Source: Nocardia sp. CDC159 (GTDB lineage: Bacteria; Actinomycetota; Actinomycetes; Mycobacteriales; Mycobacteriaceae). Taken from it: DNA of 64,000 nt. The translations under genes and the position numbers were made by a program. Positions 11,925 through 30,275 of the stretch are shown here, one piece after another (within the stretch, counting starts at the first letter, position 1; every line of letters starts with the position of its first letter). Below the pieces are notes generated by a model, which was not told the DNA's origin, made no database searches, and saw only the letters and a program-made list of their open reading frames with translations. The stretch lies in assembly GCF_023740735.1 (NCBI RefSeq), contig NZ_JAMRXH010000004.1:186001-250000 (forward strand), given 5' to 3'.

Positions 11925-12035
11925 TCCGCTGCATGTTATGTACGGCCGACAGTCGGTCCCAGACAGAATTTTACGGGGGTTGACCGGATGAGCAGGCGAA
12001 ACCCGTTGGCGCCCAAGGCGTCAGGGGTTCTTGAC

Positions 12036-13619
12036 CTACCTGCTCGGCGCCCCGGCCGCGGTTCGGTTCGCGACCGCCTGGGTCGCCAGCTCCGTCAGGC
12101 GATTGCGGTCGAGCTTGCCCGACAGCGTCAGCGGCAGCGACGTCAGGTACACATACCGATCGGGCAGCATGTATTTCGGCAGCCGCTCCGCCAGCGCCGT
12201 GCGCACCGCCTCGGCCAAGGCGTCCTGCTCGGCCTGGTCCCCGTCGGCGACCAGACAGGCCGTCAGCAAGGGCGAACCTATCCGCCGCGGGACCACACAC
12301 AGCGCCGCGTCGAGCACCCCGGGCTGGGCGCGCAGCACGGCCTCGATCTCACCGAGTTCGATGCGGTAACCGCGCAATTTGATCTGATCGTCGTTGCGGC
12401 CCAGGTACTCCAGCCCGCCGTCGGGCAACCGGCGGGCCAGATCGCCGGTCCGGTAGTACCGCGTCTTCGCGCCGGAGGAGTCGTCCCAGACGAAGCGCTG
12501 TGCGGTGAGTTCGGCTCGGTTCAGATAACCGCAGGTGACGCCCGGGCCGGACACCCACATCTCGCCGATCTCGCCGTCGGCGACGGGCCGATGCGGCGGC
12601 TCGGCGCCACGCAGCTCGATGGTCAGATGCGGCAGCGGAACACCGATGGGCGAGCGCACCACGCCGTCCGGATCCGCCTCGGTGATCTGGCGGAATGTGC
12701 AGTACACCGTCGTTTCGGTGGGACCGTACATATTGATCACCGTCGGCCGGTGGCCCTCGCATTGAGCCCAGAACCGCCGCACCGCACCCAGATCGATACT
12801 CTCCCCGGCGAAGATGATGTACCGCAGCTGTTCCGCCGGGTACCGGGTGAGGCTGGTGAACTGCCGGAACACCGACGGCACCTGAGACAGCACCGTCACC
12901 CGCTCCTCGGTCAGCACGCGCACCAGCGAAGCCGGTACCTGGGTGGCGTCGTGCGGGACGACCACCGCCTTGGCCCCGACGGCCAGCGGGGCCCACAGTT
13001 CCCACACCGAGACGTCGAAGCTGAAGGAGTGGAAGATCGACCAGCAGTCCTCCGGGCCGACCGCGAACAGCGGTAGCGCGTTGTCGAGCAGGCCGAGCAC
13101 ATTGCCGTGGGTCACCACGCAGCCCTTCGGCGCCCCGGTGGAACCCGAGGTGTAGATCACATAGGCCGGATCGCCCGGCCCCACCGCCACCGGCGCATCG
13201 GTCGGATCGCCCGGAGCGATCGGGGTGTCGAGGTTGTAAATCCGTATCGCGGCGGGCAATTCGGTCTTGGCCAGCGCGGCGGTGGAGCCGACCACGAACC
13301 CGGTGCCGGAGTCGGCCACGATGTAGTTCTGCCGGTCCACGGGATAGGTCGGATCGATCGGGACATAGGCCGCGCCGCAGCGCAGGATGGCGATCATTCC
13401 GACGACGACGTCCAGCGTCCGTTCCGCCAGCAGGCCGACCAGATCCCCCTTGCGCACACCCTGATCGGTGAGCCGCTTCGCCACCGCCGCGGTCCGGAAG
13501 CGCAGTTGTTCGTAGGTCAGAGTGTGCTGGGTGTCCGACAGCGCCACCGTGTCCGGTGAGTTCAGCGCAGCCTTGGTGAGGACGTCGTCGAGCGATTCGA
13601 GCTTGGTGGGTGTTGCCAT
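12036..13619 (-). CDS. Stand-alone NRPS adenylation domain
   Basis: 527 residues forming one complete amino-acid-activating A domain with no carrier or condensation domain. Core motifs are in order: YTSGSTGAPKG (A3), FSFDVSVWELW (A4), NMYGPTETT (A5), YRTGD (A7), the DDQIKLRGYRIELGEIE region (A8) and LSGKLDRNRL (A10, with the catalytic Lys). The Asp235 equivalent that pairs with the alpha-amino group is present. Pocket residues read by alignment to GrsA are D-V-W-S-I-A-M-V-Y. I cannot assign a substrate; the DVW start recalls Ser/Thr-type codes. It lies 30 bp after the MFS gene in a minus-strand operon and most likely loads the free carrier protein at 16132. Confidence 0.9.
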   Translation of the reverse strand: MATPTKLESLDDVLTKAALNSPDTVALSDTQHTLTYEQLRFRTAAVAKRLTDQGVRKGDLVGLLAERTLDVVVGMIAILRCGAAYVPIDPTYPVDRQNYIVADSGTGFVVGSTAALAKTELPAAIRIYNLDTPIAPGDPTDAPVAVGPGDPAYVIYTSGSTGAPKGCVVTHGNVLGLLDNALPLFAVGPEDCWSIFHSFSFDVSVWELWAPLAVGAKAVVVPHDATQVPASLVRVLTEERVTVLSQVPSVFRQFTSLTRYPAEQLRYIIFAGESIDLGAVRRFWAQCEGHRPTVINMYGPTETTVYCTFRQITEADPDGVVRSPIGVPLPHLTIELRGAEPPHRPVADGEIGEMWVSGPGVTCGYLNRAELTAQRFVWDDSSGAKTRYYRTGDLARRLPDGGLEYLGRNDDQIKLRGYRIELGEIEAVLRAQPGVLDAALCVVPRRIGSPLLTACLVADGDQAEQDALAEAVRTALAERLPKYMLPDRYVYLTSLPLTLSGKLDRNRLTELATQAVANRTAAGAPSR

Positions 13620-13649
13620 GGGTCGACCTCTGTATTCGATGGGCGCGGT

Positions 13650-14912
13650 CTAGACTTTCGCTTCGACGTCGGCCTCGACCGCACTGGTGAAGACGCGCAG
13701 GAACAGCGGAATCAGGGCCAGGGTCATGATGGCGAAGACCCCGAAGGCCAGCTTCGCGTCGAACCACTGGGCGATCACGCCCGCCAGTGCGGAGCCCAGC
13801 GGAATCGAACCCCAGCCGAACAGGCGGTTGGCCGCGCTGTAGCGGCCCATCATCTCCTGCGACACCAGCCGCTGACCGATGGTGCGGGAGTTGACCGTCC
13901 ACAGCGTGCCGCCCATGCCGCCGAGAAATGCCGCGGCGCCGACAATCCACACATTCGTGGTGAGTGCGGGTGCGGCCGTCATTGCCAGGGTCAAGATGAT
14001 GTTGCTGAACATCACGCGGCGACGGCCGAACAGCCGGTTGCTCACCCCGACGACCATCGTGCCGACGACGCCGCCGACGCCCAGCGCGCTGACCATGGCG
14101 CCGTAATAGCCTGCGCTCAAACCCATTCCACTCGTCGCGACCAGCGGCATGAGGCCGAACCAAGCGCCCCAGCAGGCGCACAGCACCGCGACCACGATGC
14201 TGAACGTGCGCAGCAGTCGGTGCCCCAGCAGGAACTTCAGCCCCTCGGCAATCTGTTCGTGCACAGTCACTTTGGGCTGCTCCTCGGTCCGCGCGACGCG
14301 GAAGGTGCCGACCAGGAACAGCAGGATGATCACCGACAGCGCGTACGCGACCACCGTGGAGCCCAGCGCGATGGCCGTTCCGGCGGCGACCAGCAGGCCG
14401 CCCAGGAACGGTCCGGCGAATTCGTTGCAGACGGTTTCGGCCCCGGTCAGCCACTGGTTGGCCTTCTCCCGCCCGGCCGGGACGATCGCGTCCGGAATGA
14501 GCGCACCCGCGGAGGTCAGTGCGATGACCTCGGCCACGCCCAGTACGAGGCCGCCGACGTAGAGCATCGGCAGGTTGATCGTGTCCGCGAGTACGGCCCC
14601 GAACAGTCCGACCACCACCACGATTCGCATGCCGTTGGCCAGCCACAGCAGCTTGCGGCGGTCGGCGCGATCCACCAGCACGCCCACGTGCATGGCCGCG
14701 AACAGCCACGGCAGGGTCAGGGTGAGCAGCACCAGCGAGACCAGGGCGGGCGATTTGGTGAGCGTCGTGGCGATCAGCGGCAGCGCCACCTTGGTCACGC
14801 CGTCGGCCAGATTCGTCACCGCGGTGAACGAGACCAGTACGGCGGTGTTGCGGCCGATGGTTTCGGTGCCCGGCTCCGTGCGCGCGGCCACCGCCTCTTG
14901 GGGTTCCGTCAT
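13650..14912 (-). CDS. MFS exporter (EntS-like, MFS_3)
   Basis: 420 residues with about twelve membrane segments. DRADRRK, after the second or third helix, is the MFS motif A region. EntS-type proteins export enterobactin, and relatives accompany many peptide and siderophore clusters. ATG 14912 follows AAGGGG at a suitable distance; the reading frame extends upstream but without better signals. It is transcribed with the A-domain gene and divergently from the dioxygenase gene. Most likely it exports the cluster product or gives self-protection. Confidence 0.85.
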   Translation of the reverse strand: MTEPQEAVAARTEPGTETIGRNTAVLVSFTAVTNLADGVTKVALPLIATTLTKSPALVSLVLLTLTLPWLFAAMHVGVLVDRADRRKLLWLANGMRIVVVVGLFGAVLADTINLPMLYVGGLVLGVAEVIALTSAGALIPDAIVPAGREKANQWLTGAETVCNEFAGPFLGGLLVAAGTAIALGSTVVAYALSVIILLFLVGTFRVARTEEQPKVTVHEQIAEGLKFLLGHRLLRTFSIVVAVLCACWGAWFGLMPLVATSGMGLSAGYYGAMVSALGVGGVVGTMVVGVSNRLFGRRRVMFSNIILTLAMTAAPALTTNVWIVGAAAFLGGMGGTLWTVNSRTIGQRLVSQEMMGRYSAANRLFGWGSIPLGSALAGVIAQWFDAKLAFGVFAIMTLALIPLFLRVFTSAVEADVEAKV

Positions 14913-14944
14913 CGTCTTATCCCCTTTGTCGATATTTCTTGCCG

Positions 14945-14997
14945 CCTGCCGATGCGGCAGGTGATTACCCCAAGCATGCCGTGCCACAGGCGATTAC
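14945..14997. promoter_or_regulatory. Inverted repeat and direct repeats upstream of the MFS gene
   Basis: CCTGCCG-ATG-CGGCAGG (14945-14961) is a perfect 7-bp inverted repeat with a 3-base centre. CAGGTGATTAC (14958-14968) recurs as CAGGCGATTAC (14987-14997), 29 bp apart, with one mismatch. They lie 33-85 bp upstream of the MFS start in the divergent promoter region of 295 bp. An operator role is inferred from position only. Confidence 0.4.
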
Positions 14998-15073
14998 GGA
15001 ATACGGTGGGTGGCCGGGGACAGCGGAAAAACATCAGGTCGTGGCGACGTAACAGCTTCGGTGTATCGCTGGT

Positions 15074-15089
15074 ACATCGAGAACACATC
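15074..15089 (+). promoter_or_regulatory. Putative regulator site, copy 1 (ACATCGAGNNCACATC)
   Basis: ACATCGAGAACACATC shares 14 of 16 bases with a second copy at 16084-16099. Read as heptads it gives TCGCTGG (15066), TCGAGAA (15077) and TCCGCGC (15088) at exact 11-bp steps. That is the spacing SARP regulators such as ActII-ORF4 and DnrI recognise (TCGAG-type heptads). It lies about 120 bp upstream of the dioxygenase start. The nearby SARP gene makes this a plausible target. Confidence 0.45.
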
Positions 15090-15207
15090 CGCGCTTGGAA
15101 ACCTGTATCTCGAAGGCGCCTGCCACCGTGACTCGGCGAGGTTCGAGGACAACCGGACCATCCCAAACCGATGCGCCTTCGCTCCCCGATAGAAAAAGAG
15201 ACAGACG

Positions 15208-16008
15208 ATGCTGATCGACGCCAAACAGCAATACGATTCCCAGGGTTTCTGCGTGATGCCGCAGCGACTCAGCGATGCCATGCTCGCACAGGTTCGCGAG
15301 AGCATCTCCGAAATCTCCGGTATGACCCGTCCCGAGGTCGTCTACGAAAAGGACGGAAAGACGGTCCGCGCACTGCACGGCTGCCACCGGTTCGACGATG
15401 TATGCGCCGATCTGGTGCGACTGCCGCTGTTCGTGGAGCTGGCCGAGTCGATTCTCGGCGAGGAGGTGTACGTCTACCAGTTCAAGGTCAACATCAAGAA
15501 CGCGGTCGACGGCGAGAGGTGGCCCTGGCACCAGGATTACGCGTTCTGGAGCATCGAGGACGGCATGCCCGCCGACCGCGCGATGAACATCGCGATCAAC
15601 CTCGACGACGTCTACGACTGGAACGGGCCGCTGCAGGTGCTCGCGGGCACCCATCTGCTCGGGCTCATCCCCTCACCGGACCACGGCGCGACCTCCGGCG
15701 GCGACTGGCGTGACCACGTCTCCGCCGATCTGACCTACACCGTCGGTGACCAGGAGGTCGAGGAGCTCGGCAAACGGCACGAGCTGCATCGGCTCACCGG
15801 ACCGGCCGGGACCATCTCGGCCTTCCACCCGAACATCGTGCACTCCTCGGCGCGCAACACCTCGAGCGATCGCCGCACCATCCTCTACATCACCTACAAC
15901 GCGGTGTCCAACTCGCCGCGGCACGCGCATCGGCCGCATTTCCTCGTCGATCCGATCACCACGGCGGTGCGCAAGCTGGACCAGCCGCTCGCGCTGACCC
16001 CGGCCTAG
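15208..16008 (+). CDS. Fe(II)/2-oxoglutarate dioxygenase, PhyH family, ectoine-hydroxylase-like
   Basis: 266 residues. The iron facial triad is visible as WHQD (His and Asp) and a distal His in NIVHSSARN, whose Arg probably binds 2-oxoglutarate. The segment WHQDYAFWSIEDGMP closely follows the ectoine hydroxylase (EctD) pattern, in which W-x-x-D is followed by an EDGMP loop. Asp in HxD argues for a hydroxylase rather than a SyrB2-type halogenase. It probably hydroxylates an amino or imino acid, free or carrier-bound, for the adjacent NRPS. ATG 15208 follows AAAAAGAGA. The intergenic space to the next gene is 123 bp. Confidence 0.83.
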   Translation: MLIDAKQQYDSQGFCVMPQRLSDAMLAQVRESISEISGMTRPEVVYEKDGKTVRALHGCHRFDDVCADLVRLPLFVELAESILGEEVYVYQFKVNIKNAVDGERWPWHQDYAFWSIEDGMPADRAMNIAINLDDVYDWNGPLQVLAGTHLLGLIPSPDHGATSGGDWRDHVSADLTYTVGDQEVEELGKRHELHRLTGPAGTISAFHPNIVHSSARNTSSDRRTILYITYNAVSNSPRHAHRPHFLVDPITTAVRKLDQPLALTPA

Positions 16009-16042
16009 CCGAGGTCGACGATCGCGAGAAGCCCAGCTCACG

Positions 16043-16099
16043 GCGCTCGATGTGCCGGGCCACAGCGGCGAGAAATTACGAGCACATCGAGCGCACATC
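16043..16099 (+). promoter_or_regulatory. Putative regulator site, copy 2, with a 12-bp inverted arm
   Basis: ACATCGAGCGCACATC (16084-16099) repeats the element found at 15074. In addition GCGCTCGATGTG (16043-16054) is the exact inverse of CACATCGAGCGC (16083-16094), giving 12-bp perfect arms 28 bp apart. TCGAGCG and TCGGCCT are 11 bp apart as in SARP sites. A possible -10 (TATGTG, 16112) lies 7 bp after the second heptad but is very close to the ATG at 16132. Confidence 0.5.
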
Positions 16100-16131
16100 G
16101 GCCTCGAGAAGTATGTGAAAGAAGAAGTTTC

Positions 16132-16407
16132 ATGGACACCATCGATGAAAGCAGAGGGACCGTGGCGGATACAATGGACCTCGATGTCGCCATCGCACGT
16201 CATGCCACGGCGGAATTCGACGATTCGACATCTCTCGCCGATGCCGGGCTGGAATCGTTGTCGCTCATCAGGCTTGCGGTGGAGGCCGCGACCGACGAGG
16301 ACGCAGAAATCGACGCGACCCGACTCGTCGACATTCACACCATCGGCGATCTGAAAGTCTGGCTGCGCGAACTCGCGGCCGCGGCTGCGGAGGCACAGGC
16401 ATCATGA
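16132..16407 (+). CDS. Free-standing peptidyl/acyl carrier protein
   Basis: 91 residues, the size of a single carrier domain. DAGLESLSL carries the serine (S42) that would receive 4'-phosphopantetheine; the surrounding residues fit helix II of a carrier. ATG 16132 was chosen because about 40 residues before the Ppant serine is normal. An in-frame GTG near 16162 has the better Shine-Dalgarno (GAGGG), so the start is uncertain. The stop overlaps the ATG of the C-A-PCP gene. It probably carries the first amino acid, loaded in trans by a free A domain. Confidence 0.85.
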   Translation: MDTIDESRGTVADTMDLDVAIARHATAEFDDSTSLADAGLESLSLIRLAVEAATDEDAEIDATRLVDIHTIGDLKVWLRELAAAAAEAQAS

Positions 16408-19400
16408 CGGCGCTGAATTCCGACGTATTGACGCTTACCGACTCGCAAAAAGGACTGCTGGTCGTCGACGGCTGGGTGCCCACGCCGGAAATCTACAACC
16501 AGCTCATGCGATTCGATATCGATCCCGAACTGCCCGAATCCGCGGTGGCCGAGGCGATTTACACGCTGGTGACCATTCAGCCCGCCCTGCGGCAGGTGTT
16601 CCGGACCAAGCCCGAATTCCATGCCCTGTTCGCGCCGACGCCGCCACCGGAGGAGTTTCCGCTGGAGGTGGTCGAGACCGACCCGGACACCTTCGAGGAC
16701 GGCGTGTGGGATGTGGTGCGGCGCATCGGATCCCGTCCGTTCGATCTGGCCGTCGGGCCCGCCTACCGGTTCGGGCACGTCCGGGCCGACGACGGCAGCG
16801 CGGCGGCGGTGCTGCTGTGCGGCCATCACGTCGTCGGCGACGGCATCTCGATGGGTCCGATCATCCGCGATCTGCAGGACGCCATCACCGGTAAGTACGA
16901 CGCCGAGGCGATCTCCGCCAAGCAGGCCGAGCGGGAGAGGGCATTCGTCAAGGAGCTGGCGGCACAGGATCGGGCGACCAAGGCGGCGGTGGCCACCGAG
17001 CGCGCCAAGATCTGGGCCAAGGAGCTTGCGGATGTGCCGCCGCTGGTGCTCGACCCGCGCCCGGACCGGCCGACCGAGACGAAATTCCGTGGCGCACGGC
17101 TTGATTGGCGGCTCACCGAGGAGCAGTCGAGCGCTGTCAACGCGATGTGCAAGCGGCTGTCGGTGAGTCCGTTCGTCCTTTTCACCGCGCTCTACGGCGC
17201 GACGATGGCCCGGCACGCCGGTGTCGAGCGGCTGCTGGTGGGCAGCCCGTTCGCCGCGCGGCGCACAGTGAAATCCTTCGATCTGGTCGGCTTCTTCGTG
17301 CAGACCCTGCCGGTGACCGTCGAGGTCGACTGGACGCGCACGGTGGACGAGCACATCGGCCGGACGGTTCGCGATGCGGTCGACTACTGCCGGTCGAATC
17401 TGGACATCTCGTTCAACCAGCTCGTGGCCGAGGTGGGGCAGGATCGCACCAGCAATCGCAACCCGCTGTTCGCGTGCATGCTCGCCATGCAGGACACCTA
17501 TGTCAACGCCGACAAGGGGCCGATCCTCGGGGTGAGCGAACCCGGTAACGGCACCGCCAAATTCGATCTGTGGCTCGGCGCCACACCGGTCGACGGCTGC
17601 TGGCTGCTCGAGCTGGAATACGACATCGAGCTGATCCGGCCCGAGGTCGCCGAGGGCATCCTCGACTCGCTGCGGACCGCGCTGCCGCGCGCACTGGCGG
17701 ACGGGTCGGCCCCGCTGGCCGCGCTGTTCGCCGATGCCTCACTGGCACAGAGCCTTCCGGCTCCGGCCTGGCAACTGCCCGGCGCCACCCTGACCGAGCT
17801 GATCGACGCCGCGGCGCTGCGCACCCCGGACGCGGTCGCGGTCGAGGAGCCCGGCAAGCAGTTGACCTACGCCGAGCTGATCACCGCGTCCGAGCAGGTG
17901 GCCGCCGGATTGATCGAACACGGCACGGCCGCCCAGGATGTCGTCGCCATCGCCACCGAGACGCTGGTCAGCACGGTGGTGGCCATGCTGGCCATCCTGC
18001 GCTGCGGCGCGACCTTCCTGCCGGTGGATCTGACCCTGCCCGCCGAGCGGCTGGCCGGAATGCTGAGCCGGTCCGGCTGCAAGATCGTCATCGGTGACGG
18101 GGTGGACGCGCCGGGCGTGCGGACCATTCAGTGCGCCGAATTGTGCGGTCCCGCACGGATCGAGGGGCTGCGCGGTGATCCGGAGGCGGCCGCCTACCTG
18201 ATGTTCACCTCCGGCTCGACGGGCGTGCCCAAGGGCGTGCTGATGGGTCAGCGGCCGCTGCTCAATCTGGCCGCGTGGCAGCTGACCGCGCTCGATCACG
18301 GTCCGGAGACGCGGTTCTTCCAGTACGCGCCACTGGGTTTCGATGTCTCCTACCAGGAGATCATCCCGACCCTGATGACCGGCGGCACGGTCGTGTCCCG
18401 GCAGCCGGTGGACCGGCGCGACTTCCCCGCGCTGGTGCGCCGGGTCGCCGAGACCGCGGTCACCCATCTGTTCCTGCCGGTCGCGGCGCTGCGGCCGTTC
18501 GTGCAGGCGGCGCGGGCCGAGGGGCTGCGGTTCCCGGCGCTCACCCACTTCTGCGTCTCCGGCGAACAGTTGCTGGTGGACGAGGAGATCCGAGCCTTCT
18601 TCGTCGAGCACGAGCGGTGCAAACTCATCAATCTGTACGGCCCGACCGAGACCAATGCCGTCACCGAGCACACGCTGCGCGGGCCCGACGGGCCGTGGCC
18701 GGTGCACGTGCCGATCGGCTCGCCGATGCCCGGCGTGGCCGCTTACATCGTCGACACCTCCGGACACCTTGCGCCCGTGGGGGTTCCGGGTGAGCTGTAC
18801 ATCGGCGGCAGCGTGCCAGCCGACGGCTACCTCGACGATCCCGAGCGCACCGCGGCCGGATTCCTGCCCGATCGCTTCGCCGGAGCCGGACGAATGTACC
18901 GGACCGGCGATCAAGTGGTCCGCGATGTCACGGGCGCGCTGATCTTCCTGGGCCGCAGGGACGCTCAGCTCAAGATCCGCGGCTACCGGGTCGAACTGGG
19001 CGAGATCGAGGCGGTCGCCACCCGCGCCGCCGGGGTGGCGCAGGCGGTCGCGGTGGCACACGGCTCCGGGGCCGAGCGGGAGCTGGTGCTGTTCCTGCGC
19101 TGGGAGGGCGATGCCGCGCCCGACCATGCCGCGGTGCGCACCGTCCTGTCGCGGGCGCTGCCCGCGTACCAGGTGCCCACCAAGATCTACGACATCGATA
19201 CCGTGCCGACCTCGCGCACCGGCAAGACCGACCGCAATGCCCTTGTGGCACTTATCGATACGCTGACCCCGACCACCCCGGCCGACGCGCCGGAGCCGGA
19301 GTTCGCCGACGATCTGGAGCGGGAACTCGCCGAGATCTGGGCGGGCATCCTCGAGGTGGAGCGGCTCGAGCGCGATCGGTCGCTGCTGGAATACGGGGCG

Positions 19401-19535
19401 CATTCGCTCAATGTGTTCACCGCCTTCGCCCAGATCGAGGAGCGCTACGGGACGACGGTCGAGGTGCCGGACTTCTTCCGGGATCCGACCATCGCGGCGC
19501 TGGCCGACCTGGTCCGGGAAAAGGTACCCGCATGA
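16404..19535 (+). CDS. NRPS module, condensation-adenylation-carrier (C-A-PCP)
   Basis: 1043 residues. The C domain (about 1-430) has an intact HHVVGDG active site, so it should form peptide bonds. The A domain (about 450-950) shows FTSGSTGVPKG, GFDVSYQEI, NLYGPTETN, YRTGD and the RDAQLKIRGYRVELGEIE region. The carrier domain ends the protein with YGAHSLN. A-pocket residues read as D-V-Q-F-C-S-L-A-V; the DVQ beginning occurs in proline/imino-acid codes, but the rest is not a known match. It should condense its amino acid with the residue on the free carrier. ATGA overlaps join it to the genes on both sides. Confidence 0.93.
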   Translation: MTALNSDVLTLTDSQKGLLVVDGWVPTPEIYNQLMRFDIDPELPESAVAEAIYTLVTIQPALRQVFRTKPEFHALFAPTPPPEEFPLEVVETDPDTFEDGVWDVVRRIGSRPFDLAVGPAYRFGHVRADDGSAAAVLLCGHHVVGDGISMGPIIRDLQDAITGKYDAEAISAKQAERERAFVKELAAQDRATKAAVATERAKIWAKELADVPPLVLDPRPDRPTETKFRGARLDWRLTEEQSSAVNAMCKRLSVSPFVLFTALYGATMARHAGVERLLVGSPFAARRTVKSFDLVGFFVQTLPVTVEVDWTRTVDEHIGRTVRDAVDYCRSNLDISFNQLVAEVGQDRTSNRNPLFACMLAMQDTYVNADKGPILGVSEPGNGTAKFDLWLGATPVDGCWLLELEYDIELIRPEVAEGILDSLRTALPRALADGSAPLAALFADASLAQSLPAPAWQLPGATLTELIDAAALRTPDAVAVEEPGKQLTYAELITASEQVAAGLIEHGTAAQDVVAIATETLVSTVVAMLAILRCGATFLPVDLTLPAERLAGMLSRSGCKIVIGDGVDAPGVRTIQCAELCGPARIEGLRGDPEAAAYLMFTSGSTGVPKGVLMGQRPLLNLAAWQLTALDHGPETRFFQYAPLGFDVSYQEIIPTLMTGGTVVSRQPVDRRDFPALVRRVAETAVTHLFLPVAALRPFVQAARAEGLRFPALTHFCVSGEQLLVDEEIRAFFVEHERCKLINLYGPTETNAVTEHTLRGPDGPWPVHVPIGSPMPGVAAYIVDTSGHLAPVGVPGELYIGGSVPADGYLDDPERTAAGFLPDRFAGAGRMYRTGDQVVRDVTGALIFLGRRDAQLKIRGYRVELGEIEAVATRAAGVAQAVAVAHGSGAERELVLFLRWEGDAAPDHAAVRTVLSRALPAYQVPTKIYDIDTVPTSRTGKTDRNALVALIDTLTPTTPADAPEPEFADDLERELAEIWAGILEVERLERDRSLLEYGAHSLNVFTAFAQIEERYGTTVEVPDFFRDPTIAALADLVREKVPA

Positions 19536-20242
19536 CCGCGGCGAATCCGGGCAGCCTGGTCACCCTGGTTCGGCGCGGGCGACGTCCGGCCTGTGTGATG
19601 CTGCCCGGCTCCGGCGGCGGGCTCTCGCCGTATCTGCGGCTGGCCCGCCATCTCGGCAAGACCTACAACGTGTACGGGGTCCTGCCGACCGGCATGCTGC
19701 CCGGCGAGCGGCCGGAGGACACCATCGCCGAGATGACCGCGGCCGTCGGGCGCGCGCTGGACAACGGCGGGATCCGGCCGGAGGTCGTCTTCGGCTGGTC
19801 CTTCGGCGGCATCATCGCCTGGGAGCTGAGCTGCGATCTCGCCGCGACCGGCGCCCGGCCGCGGGTGGTCATCGTGGACAGCTCGCCGCTGCCGCGCCGG
19901 GCCACGGCCGCCGAGGATCACGAGATCCAGAGCCGGATCCTGGCGCAGCTGGGTCCGCTGGCCAAGCCGGATCTGATCGATCGGGTGCTGAACATCTTCG
20001 CCGCCCAGATCGTCGCGCTGCGCGAGTACGAGGCCGAGCGGCACTACGACGGTCGCGTGCTGCTGCAGATGTGCACGCCCTGGGATACCGAGGCGACCGC
20101 CGCCGCGGTGCGGCGATGGAAGGAACTGGCCGGTGATCTGACCGTCGGCACGCTCGACGCCGATCACTACGACGTATTCGAACCGCCCTACCTGCCACAG
20201 CTCGTCGCCGCCATCGACGAGTTCCTGGGGAGCGCGGCATGA
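19532..20242 (+). CDS. Type II thioesterase
   Basis: 236 residues with an alpha/beta-hydrolase fold. Nucleophile elbow GWSFGG, catalytic Asp in VIVDSSP and His in DADHYDVF form the usual triad. Stand-alone enzymes of this size next to NRPS genes remove wrongly loaded or stalled groups from carrier proteins. ATG 19532 overlaps the stop of the module gene. A direct role in release is possible, but the terminal TE domain of the next NRPS makes editing the more likely job. Confidence 0.85.
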   Translation: MTAANPGSLVTLVRRGRRPACVMLPGSGGGLSPYLRLARHLGKTYNVYGVLPTGMLPGERPEDTIAEMTAAVGRALDNGGIRPEVVFGWSFGGIIAWELSCDLAATGARPRVVIVDSSPLPRRATAAEDHEIQSRILAQLGPLAKPDLIDRVLNIFAAQIVALREYEAERHYDGRVLLQMCTPWDTEATAAAVRRWKELAGDLTVGTLDADHYDVFEPPYLPQLVAAIDEFLGSAA

Positions 20243-20301
20243 GCTCGGGCGGCCTGCCGCCGCATGTGGTGAGCAACAACAGACAACGAAGGGAAAGACC
20301 C

Positions 20302-21882
20302 ATGCGAACCCTGTACGAATGGTTCTCCGACAGCGCCGACAGATATCCCGACACGATCGCGATCGAGGTCAAGGACGTCGCGATGACCTATCGGCAACTG
20401 CGCGCGGCGGCCGAATGGATGTCGGCGCGGATGGTCGAGGCCGCGGGCGGAAGGCCCCGCACGGTCGGACTGCTGACCTCGCGCGATATCGTCAGCTACG
20501 TCGGCTATCTGGCCGTGCAGCGGCTCGGTGCGATCGGCGTGCCGCTCAACCCGGCCGCGCCCGCGGTGCGCAATGCCGACATCACCCTCGAGGCGGCCAT
20601 CGATCTGACCATGATCGACAACACCTCGGGCGAGGGTCTGCAGGAGTACCGGGAGAAGTCCGGCGTGCGGGTGCTGGACATGACCGGCGACAACTGGCGC
20701 GGCCTGTTGCGTCCGGATCCCGCCGCCGAGGTTCCGGAGCAGGGCAGGCCCGCGCCGACCGATCTGGCCTACATCACCTTCACCAGCGGTACCACGGGTA
20801 AGCCCAAGGGCGTGCCGACGATGCACCTCAGCGTCGACGCCTTCCTGTCCGACATCCTGACTCGCTTCGAGCTGCGCCCCGATTCCCGCGTATCGCAGAC
20901 CTTCGAGATGTTCTTCGACGGCGTCGTGATCGAGAGCTGGGGCGCGTGGGGTGCGGGCGGGACGCTGTGCGTGTGCCAGCATTCCGACATCTTCACGCCG
21001 GTGAAGTTCATCAACGAGAAGCGCCTGACGCACTGGATGTCGGTGCCCTCGGCGATCTCGTTCGCCCGGCGGCTGCGCGCACTGCAGCCCGGCTGTATGC
21101 CGACTCTCAAGCGCGGCATGTTCGGCGGCGACGCGATGAATATCGAGCAGGCCGAGGCCTGGGCCGCGGCCGCGCCGAAGGCGGTGCTCAACAACTGCTA
21201 CGGTCCGACCGAGACCACCATCATCATGACCGGTTACGAGGTGCCGCAGAACCGGGCGGACTGGCCGGAGACCTCCAACCGGTCGGTGCCCATCGGCTAT
21301 CCGTATCCGCATCTGGAATGGGTGCTGCTGGACGACGATCTGCGGGTGTCGGACGACGGCGAGCTGTGTGTGCGTGGGCCGCAACGTTTCCCGGGTTATC
21401 TCGATCCGGCGGAGAACTTCGGACGGTTCGTGTTGGTGGAGTCCGACCGCGGCTCCATCTACGATGGTGACGGGCCGGTGACCGATGAGCACTACTACCG
21501 CACCGGCGATCGTTGTCGTATCGAGCACGGCGAACTGGTGCACCTGGGCCGCATGGACGGCATGGTCAAGGTGCGCGGAAACCGGCTCGAGCTGGGGGAA
21601 ATCGAGTCCGCACTGCGTCGGCATCCGGCCATCGAGGATGCGGTCGTCGTCACGGTGCCCGACGCGGAGGGGGAGATCGATCTGCATGCGGTGTACACCG
21701 GCGGTGAGGTGACGATCGCCGAGTTCAACCAGTTGCTCTCGCGGCTGCCCGGCTATATGCATCCGCGCAAATTCCATCGCCGCGACACGATTCCGCTGAC
21801 CGGTCTCAACAAGGTCGATCGCCGCGGTCTGTCCGCGGAGCTGGCTCGGCAGCTCGGTACGGCGGAAGCGGCCACGTCATGA
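20302..21882 (+). CDS. Second stand-alone, atypical adenylation domain
   Basis: 526 residues of one AMP-forming A domain. It shows FTSGTTGKPKG (A3), FFDGVVIE (A4), NNCYGPTETT (A5), YYRTGD (A7), the GMVKVRGNRLELGEIE region (A8) and a C-terminal NKVDRRGL Lys. Asp235 is kept, but the pocket D-G-I-M-M-G-C-I-I matches no code I know, so the substrate may be unusual. ATG 20302 follows GAAGGGAAAG; an in-frame ATG at 20239 overlaps the thioesterase stop but lacks this signal. With no carrier of its own, it should load the carrier of the next gene, which has no A domain. Confidence 0.88.
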   Translation: MRTLYEWFSDSADRYPDTIAIEVKDVAMTYRQLRAAAEWMSARMVEAAGGRPRTVGLLTSRDIVSYVGYLAVQRLGAIGVPLNPAAPAVRNADITLEAAIDLTMIDNTSGEGLQEYREKSGVRVLDMTGDNWRGLLRPDPAAEVPEQGRPAPTDLAYITFTSGTTGKPKGVPTMHLSVDAFLSDILTRFELRPDSRVSQTFEMFFDGVVIESWGAWGAGGTLCVCQHSDIFTPVKFINEKRLTHWMSVPSAISFARRLRALQPGCMPTLKRGMFGGDAMNIEQAEAWAAAAPKAVLNNCYGPTETTIIMTGYEVPQNRADWPETSNRSVPIGYPYPHLEWVLLDDDLRVSDDGELCVRGPQRFPGYLDPAENFGRFVLVESDRGSIYDGDGPVTDEHYYRTGDRCRIEHGELVHLGRMDGMVKVRGNRLELGEIESALRRHPAIEDAVVVTVPDAEGEIDLHAVYTGGEVTIAEFNQLLSRLPGYMHPRKFHRRDTIPLTGLNKVDRRGLSAELARQLGTAEAATS

Positions 21883-24302
21883 CCGGCGAACCGATTCCGG
21901 TCGAGCCGACCGCGCTGCAGGAGGCGATGTGGTGGCTGTGCCAGCGCGTCCGGGACGAGTCGGTGTACGCCATCACCTGGCGGCTGGCCTGCGATGCGGC
22001 GCCGGATATTTCGGCGCTGCGAGTGGCCTGGCAGGCGGTGGTCGACCGGCACGAGGCGATGCGCCTGTCGTTCGCGCTGCGCGACGGCGCGATCGAGGCG
22101 GCCGTGGCGCCCGCGGCGCCGGTGTCGGTGCGGTCGATCGAGGTGGACGATCCCGGTTCGGCCGGGACGGACGCGCTGCTGCTGGCGATCGCCGAGGAAC
22201 TGCACCGGCAGCCGTTCGATCTCGCCCGCGCGCCCATGGGGCGGCTGACTCTGGTGCGGGTGGGTGAGCGGTACGAGCTGATCCTGACCGTGCACCACAT
22301 CGCGCTCGACGGCTGGGCGATGCAGCTGCTGTTCTCCGATCTGGCCGAGGCCTATGCCGCGGCGCTGCGGGGGGCGGTGCCCGCCTTCGCCGCACCGGCG
22401 CCGTCGTGGGCGGAGTTCGCCCGTGAACAGGCGCGGGCGCGCCGGGCGGGCAAGTGGCAGAAGGGCATCGATCACTGGCGCAAGACCCTGGACGGGGTAG
22501 TCGCCACCACGGTCGCCGGTGATCGGCCGCGCTATGCCGGTGCCGGTGGGGTGGGCGCGATCCTGCGGCACACCTTCAGCGACGCGGCCGTGGAAGGCGT
22601 TGCCGCCCTGTCGAAGTCGGCCTCGACCACCTCCTTCGCCGTCGTGCTCGCCGCCGTGCAGGTGCTGCTCGCCCGATCGGGAGAGAGCTCCGATGTGGTG
22701 GTCGGCGCGCTGGCCGCGAATCGGATGAGCACCCGGGAGCAGCGGCTGGTCGGCTATACGGTCAATCTGTGCGCGCTGCGGGCGACCGTGGCCGAGCAGG
22801 ACACGCTGGCCGAGGTGACCGGCCGGGCCCGCCAGTCGCTGTGGCAGATGCTCGCGCATCAGGGCGTCCCGTATCCGGTGGTGTTCTCCGAGTTGACCGA
22901 GTCGGCCCGGGCCGGGCTGGGCGACATCGTCCCGGTCATGCTGAACTACCTCGGACCGATCGGCGGTGGGCTGAAGCTCGGCGAGATCGGGATGACGCTG
23001 CTGCCCAGCCCGAACATCGCGGCGCGCACCGATATCGCGATCGCCTACTGGGACACCGAGAACGGCGGCATCACCGCCGAGGTGGAGTACAGCACGGCCC
23101 GCTACGACCGGGACACGGTGGTGCGGCTGCTACAGGATCTCGATGCGGTGCTGGCCCTCGGTGTCGAGCCCGACCGGCGGGTCGCGGAGGTGCCGGTGCG
23201 GACGAAATCGGTTCCCGCACAGGTCGATCACCATGTCGGCGTGCGGCCGGAGCAACCGGTGGACGCCGGTGCGGCGGCCGTGGACGAGGCCGAGCAGACC
23301 GTGCGCGACGTCTGGGCCGAGTTGCTCGGCTATCCGCCGGCATCGCGCGACGACAACTTCTTCGAAAGCGGTGGGCATTCGCTCAACGCGGTGGAGTTCG
23401 TCACCGCGCTAGTCGAGGCGACCGGATCACCGCTCGACCTCGCGACCTGGTTGGCCGAGCCGACGCCGCGCGGCATCCTGGCCCAGCTCGAGGGGGCGCG
23501 CCAGGCCACCGGCGCGGAGCGGCAGAGCACCGTGGTGTCGCTGCGTCCCGGTGCCGGGCTGCATCTGCATCTGTTCGCGGGTGCCGGTGGGTCGGTGCAG
23601 GACTATCGCGCGCTGATCGAGGCGCTACCCGCGGACTGGCGGGTCACGGTGTCGCAGGAACGCGAAGCGATGGAAGGGATTCCGGCCATGGCGGCGCGGT
23701 TCCGGGCGGACCTGGAGGCCGAGGGGCTGCGGCCGGATCTGCTCGGCGGCTGGTCGATGGGTGGGCAGTTGGCCTTCGAGGTCGCGATCGGGCTCGAGAA
23801 TGCGGCGCCGGGCATCGTGCTGATCGACACGATTCCGCCGGTCGGCTTCGATGTGGAGGACGAGCCGCTGGCCCAGCGCCTGGCCGATTTCGCCGAGACG
23901 ATGTGCCTGGCTCTCGGTGTGCGGCTGGCGGGTTCGTCGGTGGTGGCCGGTACGGCGGAGGACACCCTGGTGGTGTTGTCCGCGCGGCTGCGGGCCGCCG
24001 GTCACGAGGTGTCGACCGCGGCGCTGGCCGAACGCTGGCACACCCACGATCGGCACTATCGCGCGCTGTCGGCGTATGTGTCCGAGCACGTGCTCGCGGC
24101 ACCGGCCACGATGCTCACCGCGGCCGTCACCGATGCCGACGCGGCGCGCTGGATCGGGCGCTTCGCCGAGGCGCCGCGGATCGAGCGGGTGGACGCCGAT
24201 CACTACTCGGTGCTGCGGACACCGGCCGTCTCGACGGTCGCCAGGGCCATCGAGCGGTTCGCCGAGCTGGCGGTCCCGGTGCGGACCTCCACTTCCGGAT
24301 GA
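21879..24302 (+). CDS. Terminal NRPS, condensation-carrier-thioesterase (C-PCP-TE)
   Basis: 807 residues. The C domain (about 1-440) has HHIALDG. The carrier domain has FFESGGHSLNA near residue 500. The TE domain (about 560-800) has GGWSMGGQ, Asp in VLIDTIPP and His in DADHYSVL. The module has no A domain, so it depends on one supplied in trans, most simply the gene it overlaps (ATGA at 21879). The TE should release the finished peptide by hydrolysis or cyclisation. A strong terminator follows 7 bp downstream. Confidence 0.93.
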   Translation: MTGEPIPVEPTALQEAMWWLCQRVRDESVYAITWRLACDAAPDISALRVAWQAVVDRHEAMRLSFALRDGAIEAAVAPAAPVSVRSIEVDDPGSAGTDALLLAIAEELHRQPFDLARAPMGRLTLVRVGERYELILTVHHIALDGWAMQLLFSDLAEAYAAALRGAVPAFAAPAPSWAEFAREQARARRAGKWQKGIDHWRKTLDGVVATTVAGDRPRYAGAGGVGAILRHTFSDAAVEGVAALSKSASTTSFAVVLAAVQVLLARSGESSDVVVGALAANRMSTREQRLVGYTVNLCALRATVAEQDTLAEVTGRARQSLWQMLAHQGVPYPVVFSELTESARAGLGDIVPVMLNYLGPIGGGLKLGEIGMTLLPSPNIAARTDIAIAYWDTENGGITAEVEYSTARYDRDTVVRLLQDLDAVLALGVEPDRRVAEVPVRTKSVPAQVDHHVGVRPEQPVDAGAAAVDEAEQTVRDVWAELLGYPPASRDDNFFESGGHSLNAVEFVTALVEATGSPLDLATWLAEPTPRGILAQLEGARQATGAERQSTVVSLRPGAGLHLHLFAGAGGSVQDYRALIEALPADWRVTVSQEREAMEGIPAMAARFRADLEAEGLRPDLLGGWSMGGQLAFEVAIGLENAAPGIVLIDTIPPVGFDVEDEPLAQRLADFAETMCLALGVRLAGSSVVAGTAEDTLVVLSARLRAAGHEVSTAALAERWHTHDRHYRALSAYVSEHVLAAPATMLTAAVTDADAARWIGRFAEAPRIERVDADHYSVLRTPAVSTVARAIERFAELAVPVRTSTSG

Positions 24303-24308
24303 GACGAG

Positions 24309-24350
24309 GGGGTGCCTGCTCCACCAAGAGCGGAGGAGGCACCCCTTCTG
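24309..24350 (+). terminator. Rho-independent terminator after the NRPS operon
   Basis: GGGGTGCCT (24309-24317) pairs with AGGCACCCC (24337-24345). An inner CTCC/GGAG helix follows one G-G mismatch, with a 9-base loop, and TTCTGTT comes after the stem. It separates the NRPS genes from the SARP regulator. Confidence 0.8.
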
Positions 24351-24414
24351 TTAGCAGTTACCTCGGTCGCGGGGATATGCCATTGTGACTTCAACTAGGT
24401 ATGAGGGAGGTTCG

Positions 24415-26487
24415 GTGACGACATCGTCGGGGTCGGAACCGTCGCCGATCACATTCAGAATCTTGGGTCCCGTGGAGTACCTGGGACCGGACGGTTGGGT
24501 CTCCATCAGCGCGACCAAGCAGCGCACGCTGCTGGCGATGCTGCTGCTCTACGCCAATCGCAGTGTGCCCGCGCAGCAACTGTATTCGGAGCTGTGGCCG
24601 GATCGGCCGCAGGCGCGGGTGAGCGGACTGCTCGCGGGATGCATGTGGCGGCTGCGTGCCGCGATCGGTGACGAGGGTGGCACCAGGCTGATCACCACCG
24701 CCGGGGGTTATCAATTCGATGTGCCGCCGGGTGCGGTCGATCTGCACGTCTTTCAGACGCTGCTCGCCGAGGGGCGCGCCCGCCGAGCCGCCAACGACCT
24801 TGTGGGGGCGCTGGATTCGTTCACCCGCTCGCTCGAGGTCTGGCGCGGTGATGCGCTGGCCGATGTCGCGGCCACCCCCTCGATCATGGCCGAACAGTCG
24901 CGGTTGGAGGAGTCGAGGCTGTCGGCGGTGGAGGGGCGCTGCGGGGTCGAAATCGATCTCGGCAGGCACGAGGAGGTGCTCCCAGAGCTGAAACGGCTTG
25001 TCGCCCAGCATCCCCTGCGGGAACGGCTGCACGGTCTGCTGATGACCGCGCTGTACCGGTGCGGGCAGCAGGCGGAGGCGCTCGGGGTGTACCGGGATCT
25101 GCGCAACGTGCTCGTCGAAGAGCTCGGGGTCGAGCCGAGCCGTCCGCTGCGCGATCTGCACCAGCGGATCCTGCTGGAGGACCCCGGGCTGCTGACGACC
25201 ATTGTTCCGGCCGCGGCCAAAGCCGCTGCCGCGCAGCGGGTGCCAGCCGGGCCGATCGCCAAACCACAGCTGCTGCCGCCCCCGCCGCGGGTCTTCGTCG
25301 CGCGCGAGGACGAGCGGCGCAAGCTGGCCGAGCAGCTGGTCGAGCCCGACGCCGTGGTATCGGTGCACGGCGCGGCCGGGATGGGCAAGTCCGCGCTGGC
25401 GCTGGTCGCCGCGCACGATGTGGCCGACCATTTCGCCGACGGGCAGGTCGCCGTCGATATGCGCGGGTCCACCTCCGCGCCGCTGCGCCCGATCGATGCC
25501 ATGCATCAGGTGTGCGAGGCGTTCGGCGTGGTCGCGGCCTCGGTGGTGCTCGGTCACGATCAGGCGCTGCCGCGCTGGCCGCAGGAGCTGTCCAATCGCC
25601 GGGTGCTGCTGGTGCTTGACGATGTGATGAATATGCGGCAGGTGGGGCCGCTGCTGTCGGCCGCACCATCGGGGTGGTCCATTCTGCTGACCGGATGTTC
25701 GGCGGTCGGGGCGGTGGACAGCCGCAGCCATCTGCTGCTGAGCAAGCTTTCCGAGCAGGGTGCGATCGAGATGCTGCGCCGGTTGGTCGGCGAATCGCGG
25801 GTCGACGCCGATCGTGCGGCCGCCGCGCGGCTGGCCCGGCTGTGCGAGTACACGCCGCTGGCGCTGCGGATCGCCGGGGGCAAGCTGAGTACTCGACCGG
25901 AGTGGAGTGTGGCGGATTTCGCCGAACGACTCTCCGATACGCACGTGCGGCTGGATCTGCTCACCCACGGCGAGCTGAGCATGCGCGATCGCCTGACGGC
26001 CTGTCGCGCGCGGCTGGCGCGCGGCAACGATGCCGTGGGGTTGCGTGCGCTGGAGTTGCTCGGCGCGCTGGACCTCCCGGTCGTGACGGAGATGGATCTG
26101 GTGAAGCTGCTCGACGCCGCACCGGCGGCCGCGCATCTGGTCGCCGAGCGGCTGGTCGACGTCGGGTTGATCGAATCACTTCAGTTGGGGCGCTATCGAA
26201 TTCCCGCCGCGGTTCGGCTGCTGGCCCGCGAGACGCAATCCGATCTCGCGATGGGGCGGGTGGCAGTCCAGCGGGTGGTGGACTACTACGTGGACGCGAT
26301 CCGCGGCTGTGTCTCCGACAGCCGGCCGGGCGCCCAGCCGCGCGCGTGCATGCCCGGCAGGCAGGATCGGTCCGCGTGGTACCGAGCGCACCGGGCGACC
26401 CTGAGCCAACTGTCGTTGATCGACCGCACCGATGAGCTGCACAAGGCGGTCGACGATTTGAGGAACGCGTTGGGCGCCGGGAAATAG
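24415..26487 (+). CDS. AfsR/SARP-family transcriptional activator with NTPase domain
   Basis: 690 residues. The OmpR-type winged helix (about 10-95) is followed by a bacterial transcriptional activation domain (about 100-260). An NB-ARC/STAND ATPase comes next, with P-loop GAAGMGKSAL near residue 320 and VLLVLDDV as Walker B. A helical tail follows; no clear TPR array is visible. SARPs bind TCGAG-like direct heptads and activate antibiotic clusters. GTG 24415 has GAGGGAGG 5 bases before it; GTG 24385 is the longer option. Position just behind the NRPS genes makes it the likely pathway activator. Confidence 0.9.
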   Translation: MTTSSGSEPSPITFRILGPVEYLGPDGWVSISATKQRTLLAMLLLYANRSVPAQQLYSELWPDRPQARVSGLLAGCMWRLRAAIGDEGGTRLITTAGGYQFDVPPGAVDLHVFQTLLAEGRARRAANDLVGALDSFTRSLEVWRGDALADVAATPSIMAEQSRLEESRLSAVEGRCGVEIDLGRHEEVLPELKRLVAQHPLRERLHGLLMTALYRCGQQAEALGVYRDLRNVLVEELGVEPSRPLRDLHQRILLEDPGLLTTIVPAAAKAAAAQRVPAGPIAKPQLLPPPPRVFVAREDERRKLAEQLVEPDAVVSVHGAAGMGKSALALVAAHDVADHFADGQVAVDMRGSTSAPLRPIDAMHQVCEAFGVVAASVVLGHDQALPRWPQELSNRRVLLVLDDVMNMRQVGPLLSAAPSGWSILLTGCSAVGAVDSRSHLLLSKLSEQGAIEMLRRLVGESRVDADRAAAARLARLCEYTPLALRIAGGKLSTRPEWSVADFAERLSDTHVRLDLLTHGELSMRDRLTACRARLARGNDAVGLRALELLGALDLPVVTEMDLVKLLDAAPAAAHLVAERLVDVGLIESLQLGRYRIPAAVRLLARETQSDLAMGRVAVQRVVDYYVDAIRGCVSDSRPGAQPRACMPGRQDRSAWYRAHRATLSQLSLIDRTDELHKAVDDLRNALGAGK

Positions 26488-26542
26488 AATTCCAGCCAAA
26501 ACTTCCGGGGGCTTGACTCTCGGGGTCGGTGGGTCAATCCTG

Positions 26543-26558
26543 TTCCGCGAGAGCGGAA
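26543..26558. promoter_or_regulatory. Inverted repeat upstream of the LuxR-type gene
   Basis: TTCCGC-GAGA-GCGGAA is a perfect 6-4-6 palindrome, 107 bp before the GTG start, in the 177-bp gap after the SARP gene. It could be an operator for the LuxR-type regulator or a hairpin; nothing else was seen in the gap. Confidence 0.35.
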
Positions 26559-26664
26559 TTCAGCCAATGCCGCGAAGCGATGCGTTTCCGATTTGTCCGG
26601 ATGTACAGTGGGCAACGGCGGCTTGGGGGAGCCGGGCTGAGCAGGGGCAGAAGGAGGTACCCAC

Positions 26665-27357
26665 GTGCCTGGGGTACGGACCGGCGGGCGGCATTCTCGC
26701 GTTCTTCTATACGAAAGCAATGAGCTGGTGCGTGCCGGGATCGTCGCGATTCTCGCGGCCGAGCCGGACATTTCCGTGGTCGCCGATGCGGTCGGCGTCG
26801 GCAGCATCGGCGGCCTGATCCGTCGGCACGCGCCCAATGTGGTGGTCAGTGAGAGCGAGCCCGCGCTGCGGTCGGCGTTCGGCGAGTTGCCGGTGATCGC
26901 GATGTGCGATTCGATCGTCGAGGTAGACCAGGTGGTGCGGGCCGGCGTGCGCGGCATCGTGCTGCGCTCGGACGCGCGTCGCCGACTCGTACGGGCGGTC
27001 CGCGAGGTCGTGTCCGGTAACGCGTATATCGCACCGTCGGCCGCCGGATATGTGCTCGATCAATTGTGCGTTCGAATTCCGACCGTCGACCCACTCGTCA
27101 GCCGCGGCTTCGAATTGCTCACCGCACGGGAGCGCGAGGTATTGCGATTGATCGCCATGGGAATGAGCACCGTGGAAGTGGCCGCGACGCTGCACCGCAC
27201 CCGCGCCACGATCAAATCCCATATTTCCCATATCCTGGCGAAATTGGGGGTGCAGGATCGCGGCCAGGCGATCGCGCTGGCCTACCGGTTCGGCCTGGTC
27301 TCCGTGGGCGACCGGGCACCGGCCGAGCCCGTCTATCTCACCGCGCTGTCCGGTTAG
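26665..27357 (+). CDS. LuxR-family regulator with degenerate receiver domain
   Basis: 230 residues. A CheY-like domain (about 10-125) lacks the phosphorylation chemistry: the acidic pair after VLLY is E-S, and the usual phospho-Asp position reads VVVSES. A LuxR-type helix-turn-helix (about 150-215) begins LTAREREVLRLIAMGMS and contains TIKSHISHILAKLG. Such atypical response regulators work without a histidine kinase, sometimes binding a small molecule. No kinase gene is adjacent. AAGGAGG precedes GTG 26665. It is the last gene on the plus strand of the NRPS region and probably a second pathway regulator. Confidence 0.87.
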   Translation: MPGVRTGGRHSRVLLYESNELVRAGIVAILAAEPDISVVADAVGVGSIGGLIRRHAPNVVVSESEPALRSAFGELPVIAMCDSIVEVDQVVRAGVRGIVLRSDARRRLVRAVREVVSGNAYIAPSAAGYVLDQLCVRIPTVDPLVSRGFELLTAREREVLRLIAMGMSTVEVAATLHRTRATIKSHISHILAKLGVQDRGQAIALAYRFGLVSVGDRAPAEPVYLTALSG

Positions 27358-29099: not shown

Positions 29100-30275
29100 A
29101 TGGCCAAGCAGGCCTTCATTCGCACCAAGCCGCACGTGAACATCGGCACCATGGGGCACGTCGACCACGGTAAGACGACCCTGACCGCCGCCATCACCAA
29201 GGTGCTCGCCGAGCGCGGCGGCGGCGCGTTCGTACCGTTCGAGCGCATCGATCGCGCGCCGGAGGAGCTGGCGCGGGGCATCACCATCAATATCGCGCAC
29301 GTCGAATATGAAACGGCGACACGGCATTACGCTCATGTCGACATGCCCGGCCACGCCGACTTCGTGAAGAACATGATCACCGGCGCCGCCCAGATCGACG
29401 GCGCGATCCTGGTGCTGTCGGCGCAGGACGGCGTGATGCCGCAGACCGTCGAACATGTGCTGCTGGCCCGGCAGGTCGGGGTCGAGCACATCGTCGTCGC
29501 GCTGAACAAGGCCGATATCGGCGACGCGGAACTGCTGGAGTTGATCGAGCTGGAGGTCCGCGAGCTGCTGACCGCGCACGGCTACGACGGCGCGGGCACC
29601 CCGGTGGTGCCCGTCTCCGGACTGCGGGCGCTGCAGGGCGATCCGTACTGGTCGGCGGCGGTGCTGCGGCTGCTGGACGCGGTGGACACGCATATCCCGA
29701 TGCCCGTGCGCCATCTCGACGCGCCGTTCCTGCTGGCGATCGAGAACGTGCTCACCATCACCGGCCGCGGCACCGTCGTCACGGGGGCGGTGGAGCGGGG
29801 CCGGGTGCACCGGGGTGATCCGGTCGCGGTGCTCGGCTACGGCCACGACGTCGAGACCGTCGTGACCGAGGTCGAAACCTTCGGGCGGACAATGGAGTTC
29901 GCTGAGGCCGGGGACAATGTCGCGCTGCTGCTGCGCGGGGTGGGTCGCGGTCAGGTCCGACGCGGGCAGGTGGTCGCCGCACCCGGCAGCGTCGCGGTCC
30001 ACACGCGCTTCACCGCCCAACTGCACCTGCTGTCGGCGGACGAGGGCGGTCGCCGCACCCCCATCGCCACCGGTTATCGACCGCAGTTCTATCTGCGCAC
30101 CGGCGACGTGGTCGGCGACGTCACGCTCCGTTCCGGGACGCTCGCCCTGCCGGGCGAGACCGTCGAAACGGAGGTGCGGCTGGGGCGGCCGGTCCCGCTC
30201 GAGCCGGGCCTCGGGTTCGCCGTTCGAGAGGGCGGGCGGACCGTGGCCGCGGGGACGGTACTCACCGTCGAATAG
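29100..30275 (+). CDS. tuf: Elongation factor Tu paralogue (Tuf3-like)
   Basis: 391 residues, full EF-Tu length. G1 GHVDHGKT (19-26), RGITIN (59-64), DMPGH (81-85) and NKAD (136-139) are intact, as are both beta-barrel domains, so it should bind GTP and aminoacyl-tRNA. It is not in a str operon (no fusA or rpsL beside it) and diverges from housekeeping EF-Tu in the way Streptomyces Tuf3 does. At positions equal to E. coli G257 and G275, where S or A changes give GE2270A resistance, it has E257 and A275. Kirromycin positions (Q124, G316, Q329, A375 equivalents) are unchanged. Stress paralogue or antibiotic-resistant EF-Tu are the options. Confidence 0.9.

Follow-up and report, generated by a model that had tools for sequence, protein, structure and literature searches.

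CytC1, an adenylation (A) enzyme, loads a free-standing carrier, and the first module of tyrocidine synthase 2 (TycB) takes proline. The excerpted text of PMC11253843 describes loading of a free-standing carrier for Thr1, lists FscH and Txo2 as serine domains, identifies the structure 6akd as IdnL7 and gives conserved Cys, Ala and Thr residues for the VinM-type pocket (C217, A285 and T318 in IdnL7). GriE, the leucine 5-hydroxylase of griselimycin, holds its iron through His110, Asp112 and His210, and its Arg242 salt-bridges the carboxylate of the product, according to the excerpts of PMC5676206. Enzymes related to these occur side by side in a nonribosomal peptide synthetase (NRPS) block of Nocardia sp. 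CDC159, at positions 12036-26487 of the stretch analysed here (the window: 64,000 nucleotides, positions 186,001 to 250,000 of contig NZ_JAMRXH010000004.1). The cluster is real and maintained, and as a dissociated NRPS line it very probably makes a small modified peptide.

The initial annotation had described NRPS domains split over separate proteins, together with a type II thioesterase (TEII), an MFS exporter and a PhyH dioxygenase, and Pfam confirmed this layout. The minus strand carries a free-standing A enzyme (A1, 12036..13619; AMP-binding, 272.7 bits) and the MFS exporter (13650..14891, with 14987 also possible as the start). On the plus strand follow a PhyH-family Fe/2-oxoglutarate dioxygenase (15208..16008; 102.9 bits), a free-standing peptidyl carrier protein (PCP, 16132..16407; 26.7 bits, cut-off 20.8), a condensation (C)-A-PCP protein whose A domain we call A2 (16404..19535), TEII (19532..20242), a second free-standing A enzyme (A3, 20239..21882; AMP-binding, 204.1 bits) and a C-PCP-thioesterase (TE) protein (21879..24302). 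All four junctions in the run from the free PCP through C-A-PCP, TEII and A3 to C-PCP-TE are 4-base ATGA overlaps. The C, A, PCP and TE domains of an NRPS line are thus all present, and with their core motifs. Both C domains keep HHxxxDG, as had been claimed (HHVVGDG and HHIALDG), and the carrier serines lie in GLESL, GAHSL and GGHSL. The A3-core, NxYGPTE, YRTGD and A8 motifs were found in all three A domains; a script matched the A10 lysine in A1, and in A2 and A3 it was identified by eye. As for the TE triad, reported as kept, GWSMGG is present in the TE (GWSFGG in TEII), with Asp and His candidates picked by eye.

Epimerisation or D-type activity was considered for the two C domains and found no support. 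In a C-domain tree that kept 153 of 160 rows by length, and whose labels were taken from domain order and are noisy, the orthologs of C1 (in C-A-PCP) and C2 (in C-PCP-TE) grouped in their own clades, separate from the rows labelled E and from the D-type clade. The fork that unites them with L-type rows has a support of 83 and is drawn open.

A wider block of ~9444-27357 is common to Nocardia pseudobrasiliensis NBRC 108224 (NZ_BDBS01000018.1), whose counterpart shows 74-95% protein identity (91% for the MFS exporter). It adds a LanL-like gene at its left edge (9444..11924, minus strand), a SARP/AfsR-type regulator with Trans_reg_C, BTAD and NB-ARC domains (24385..26487, plus strand; closest to AfsR at 353 bits, under the cut-off of 1430) and a LuxR-type regulator at its right edge (26665..27357, plus strand). 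The initial annotation was right about the genes it listed and had overlooked the LanL-like and LuxR genes, as well as the readable parts of the A-domain pockets. DNA similarity to N. pseudobrasiliensis runs from the stop codon of the LanL-like gene (9444) to ~27308, inside the LuxR gene; between ~27308 and 31139 none was found, and at 31139 it resumes. All 11 block genes showed purifying selection against N. pseudobrasiliensis (dN/dS 0.050-0.236), which bears out the view of a maintained dissociated line with hydroxylase and exporter. Because these values are comparable to those of two flanking ABC-permease genes used as controls (0.109 and 0.202), the block is kept as ordinary working genes are and is not a product of chance.

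Within the genus the cluster occurs in 2/150 genomes, the window's own included (C-PCP-TE query, E ≤1e-70). A family-wide draw of 301 genomes returned the window's own only. An exact-seed contig scan gave 36 loci, one at 80% and the others at ≤30%; moderately similar members can escape such a scan, as it relied on exact peptide seeds. The host genome (7.86 Mb) is rich in NRPS genes, with 81 condensation-type matches. No described twin of the cluster was found in the literature searched, with MIBiG and subscription papers outside that search.

More distant relatives were found in Streptomyces. A search of 396 genomes of the phylum with A3 gave six matches at 1e-70, the window's own included, and led to Streptomyces sp. 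NBC_00704, while a C-A-PCP search gave three plasmid records at 1e-100, of which the third reached just 33%, and led to NBC_01483. C-A-PCP occurred in at least 8 of 323 genomes around G940, a lower bound in that G940, itself a holder of a member, is absent from the result. We compared ten Streptomyces loci over stretches of 21-43 kb, taking the best non-overlapping matches at E ≤1e-6. An A3-type enzyme, a free PCP and C-A-PCP were present together in seven of them (G1377, G1190, G1189, G1235, G1393, NBC_01483 and NBC_00704). The MFS exporter was found in six, at 56-66% identity, and TEII also in six, the four stretches in which it was not found being G1190, G1395, G1226 and G1196. C-PCP-TE was nearly full length in G1190 and G1189, was cut by the stretch edge in G1393 and was reduced to the C domain in G1377 and NBC_01483; it was not found in the other five loci, NBC_00704 and G1235 among them. 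PhyH, the LanL-like gene and an A1 ortholog were found in none of the ten stretches, the best long A1 matches being 34-38% identical. In a 59-row A-domain tree the Streptomyces A1 matches that were placed fell into other clades and the two Nocardia A1 rows stood alone in theirs; the fork tying the A1 clade to the others is open, and the A1-type match of G1395 (at 25562, 26%) lies outside the tree.

The statement that none of the three A pockets matches an assignable code proved too strong. A1 has the code DVWS(I/V)AMVY, read as DVWSIAMVY(K) in the window, and its nearest single-stretch PDB chains are CytC1 (355.5 bits) and Thr1 (346.1 bits), and its pocket, possibly a small-residue one, is partly like theirs. 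The A2 code DVQACSLA is identical at eight positions in 12 of 12 loci. Position 331 is gapped, with a Val by eye in the window, and a second alignment moved the last two positions, so that 330-331 are unsteady. The best single-stretch PDB match of A2 is TycB at 261 bits, followed by FscH (248) and Txo2 (242), a weak ranking. DVQ is kept in A2 and the other positions depart from the usual proline codes; the pocket is partly readable and would be of a DVQ-type, proline-like kind. A3 reads DGISMGCII in both Nocardia (with its lysine, DGISMGCII(K) in the window); NBC_01483 and G1377 have DGSSLGCIV, and the remaining loci mostly DPYSLCIVT. Among single-stretch PDB chains A3 matches 8k4r and 6akd best, and it shares a clade (16 rows, 100/100) with the enzyme of locus L109, which adjoins a VinK-type acyltransferase (VinK_C, 117.7 bits). 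By these comparisons A3 is a cousin of VinM/IdnL7.

From these data we propose, at somewhat less than even confidence, that the dissociated NRPS makes a short peptide, most simply a tripeptide, with A3 serving the free PCP and A1 serving C-PCP-TE. PhyH would hydroxylate an aliphatic L-amino acid in its free form, probably one that resembles leucine and, as with GriE, at a remote carbon. A3 would activate one residue and load it onto the free PCP, and C1 of C-A-PCP would join that residue to a proline-like one loaded by A2. C2 of C-PCP-TE would then join the dipeptide to a small Thr-, Val- or Abu-like residue, loaded onto that carrier in trans by A1. The TE would release the product and TEII would clear misloaded carriers, with the MFS protein as the predicted exporter and SARP and LuxR as the putative controls of expression. 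The data themselves show the gene content, the intact motifs, the purifying selection and the recurrence of the A3/PCP/C-A-PCP set; we infer every loading partner, every substrate, the hydroxylated residue and the size of the product.

The initial annotation had paired the enzymes the other way, A1 with the free PCP and A3 with C-PCP-TE. The reverse fits better, as A3, the free PCP and C-A-PCP occur in NBC_00704 and G1235 where neither an A1 ortholog nor C-PCP-TE was seen, and in NBC_01483 and G1377 where only the C domain of C-PCP-TE was seen. Their joint occurrence without an A1 ortholog or the PCP-TE part makes A3 the more probable loader of the free PCP; because A1 was seen only in the two Nocardia blocks, it is the likelier loader of C-PCP-TE. 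The rates of change agree weakly with this pairing (dN/dS 0.050 for the free PCP and 0.089 for A3 versus 0.215 for A1 and 0.235 for C-PCP-TE).

Several observations weigh against the proposed pairing. The values for C-A-PCP (0.154), MFS (0.103) and TEII (0.236) show that dN/dS varies for other reasons, and in three of the ten Streptomyces loci the stretch covered shows no free PCP, MFS or TEII. FscH and Txo2, both serine domains, score nearly level with TycB against A2, and the relatives of A3 include VinM, which the excerpts of PMC11284099 describe as amide-forming, not thiol-loading. The A3 gene overlaps the C-PCP-TE gene, and the two nearest chains of A1, CytC1 and Thr1, serve free-standing carriers, which favours A1 with the free PCP. 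These last two points speak for the original pairing, with A1 on the free PCP and A3 on C-PCP-TE in trans; PhyH might then modify the residue bound to the free PCP, in the manner of the CytC or Thr systems. We consider this pairing rather unlikely, given the co-occurrence of A3-type enzymes and free PCPs where neither an A1 ortholog nor the PCP-TE part was seen, and given a dioxygenase that keeps the carboxylate arginine of GriE and has no halogenase named among its PDB matches (see below).

The kinship of A3 with VinM raises a second alternative, in which A3 would activate an amino acid and attach it to the amino group of a residue that the free PCP already carries, so that a dipeptidyl carrier forms before C1 acts. 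The clade shared with the L109 enzyme, the chains 8k4r and IdnL7 and the amide-forming reaction described for VinM all point this way. At the three signature positions, by our own mapping, A3 has G, G and I, whereas the L109 enzyme (DCFSFAIVT) has C, A and T. Because the C, A, T signature is absent from A3, we did not file it as VinM-type. Neither a VinK-like nor a VinN-like gene was seen among the block genes, and NBC_01483 and G1377 show only A2 and A3, which would leave the free PCP with no other loader. Such a role for A3 therefore seems quite unlikely. The tripeptide of the initial annotation requires that no carrier be used more than once. An A domain that loads in trans can serve more than one carrier, and the Streptomyces relatives vary in their numbers of A domains and carriers. 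The cluster might then be an ordinary one in which two carriers share a single A domain, or a carrier is reused, and the product is not a tripeptide. We regard this as very unlikely, because the equal numbers of A domains and carriers, three of each, suit a single use of every one.

Returning to the proposed scheme, the hydroxylation that had been predicted remains likely, with its timing placed before activation rather than on a carrier. The PDB matches of PhyH are led by a dioxygenase series (7e01 and others, best E-value 3.7e-46), followed by GriE (5nch, 1.8e-44) and EctD (5.4e-29), and no halogenase is named in the 15 sequences matched up to E 10. A literature search for the 7dzz-series dioxygenase gave no identification. 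Residues H108, D110, H212 and R242 of PhyH align identically with all four GriE residues described in the excerpts of PMC5676206 (chain offset of three), so that the HxD motif (HQD), the distal His and, by alignment only, an Arg242-type carboxylate partner are present. This arginine is also kept in the N. pseudobrasiliensis PhyH and in a 53% identical relative in G435, a genome from another family of the order. There the relative (L087:2221-3251) adjoins a large NRPS gene and a protein of 78 aa judged MbtH-like by eye. Once an amino acid is bound to a carrier, its carboxylate is no longer free. As PhyH keeps the carboxylate Arg, it more likely takes an unbound amino acid as substrate, and judged from its sequence PhyH is likelier to be a GriE-like enzyme acting before activation than one acting on a carrier.

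Among the closest known systems, the NRPS loci of NBC_01483 (NZ_CP109439.1) and NBC_00704 (NZ_CP109002.1) resemble the block in MFS, free PCP, a C-A-PCP protein whose A2 code is identical, TEII and an A3-type enzyme. NBC_01483 also shares a C domain at 45% identity, a SARP at 50% and LuxR-like pieces; the PCP-TE part was not seen there, nor C-PCP-TE in NBC_00704. Unlike the block, both carry ProA and an SDR (NBC_01483 also a ProB-like gene), and PhyH, the LanL-like gene and an A1 ortholog were not seen. With SDR, ProA and ProB queries all taken from NBC_01483, ProA was found in ten of ten Streptomyces loci, and the two proteins tested pass the NCBIfam cut-off (545 and 355 versus 289 bits). SDR was found in eight, although in G1395 the stretch edge leaves just its final 31 residues; the stretches of G1226 and G1196 end at that place. 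In Nocardia, PhyH is present in both blocks and ProA in neither stretch read. ProA with SDR, on the one hand, and PhyH, on the other, might be alternative routes to one residue, although we find this doubtful. The shared A2 code combined with non-homologous supply genes has a consequence: if A2 takes the supplied residue, the products of PhyH in Nocardia and of ProA/SDR in Streptomyces must be similar, for example delta-hydroxylated amino acids. On its plasmid, the NBC_00704 locus (L114, NZ_CP109002.1 36000-76000) is annotated with, besides ProA, a TrpB-like gene, two genes for acyl-CoA dehydrogenases, a PLP enzyme of type III and additional carriers; it also has a gene of the glutamate-tRNA-ligase family, perhaps a resistance or tRNA-using part. 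Beyond the regulators of NBC_01483 lie asparagine synthase and methionyl-tRNA-synthetase-like genes (L113:30937-36959).

The LanL-like gene is co-directional with A1, and its counterpart in N. pseudobrasiliensis is 74% identical and adjacent to the cluster. The protein shares RamC_N, protein kinase and LanC-like domains with class IV LanL enzymes; unlike them it stays under the family cut-off (NF038150, 513 versus 650 bits; class III, 268 versus 575), and no convincing conserved small ORF for a LanA precursor was found beside the gene. Its translation contains, by eye, W-C-x-G and C-C-G, which we take to be zinc-type motifs, and kinase motifs that likewise look intact. Such a protein was found in three genomes out of 148 searched in the genus (E ≤1e-60), the cluster-linked copy being confined to the two with the block, and has paralogs (57-61%) on contig C47 of the same genome and twice in G316. 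LanL-like genes as general markers of NRPS clusters were rejected: tblastn with the block NRPS proteins was empty in ~20 kb around each of the three other copies. The enzyme may be a passenger. A place in the pathway is suggested because the gene adjoins the cluster in both Nocardia that have the block, no precursor is visible and the motifs look intact; it might act on the nonribosomal peptide by phosphorylating and eliminating the hydroxyl of a Thr-like or PhyH-hydroxylated residue. We think this highly improbable; if true, an enzyme of ribosomal peptides would be working on an NRPS product.

Two genes outside the shared block were also noted. Just beyond its right edge lies a second EF-Tu gene (29100-30275, plus strand), 62% identical to the main copy of the genome. 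The N. pseudobrasiliensis genome showed the main copy only, its next best match being 38%, and a role as the self-resistance gene of the cluster was set aside as unsupported, the gene lying outside the block and not being found in that genome. About 3.5 kb left of the block, the only SDR of the window (5153-5896, plus strand) is 34% identical to the Streptomyces-cluster SDR, a similarity that probably reflects no more than membership in the same large family.

Compared with described systems, PhyH shares with GriE the PhyH family, the HxD motif, the distal His and an aligned carboxylate Arg; unlike the griselimycin setting, no methylproline-forming dehydrogenase or reductase was recognised among the block genes. 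A1 keeps the Met and Val named for the Thr1 pocket in the excerpts of PMC11253843, by our own mapping of positions, whereas the Phe and Gly of that pocket are Val and Ala in A1. In contrast to the CytC1 and Thr1 settings, the dioxygenase beside A1 is GriE-like with HQD and not a halogenase. A3 sits in an NRPS setting, VinM and IdnL7 in a polyketide synthase setting. As the relatives differ in A1, the PCP-TE part and PhyH versus ProA/SDR, a handful of purified proteins would suffice to test carrier pairing in trans. The cluster is ordinary in kind; what is unusual is its full dissociation and the mixing of parts among its relatives.

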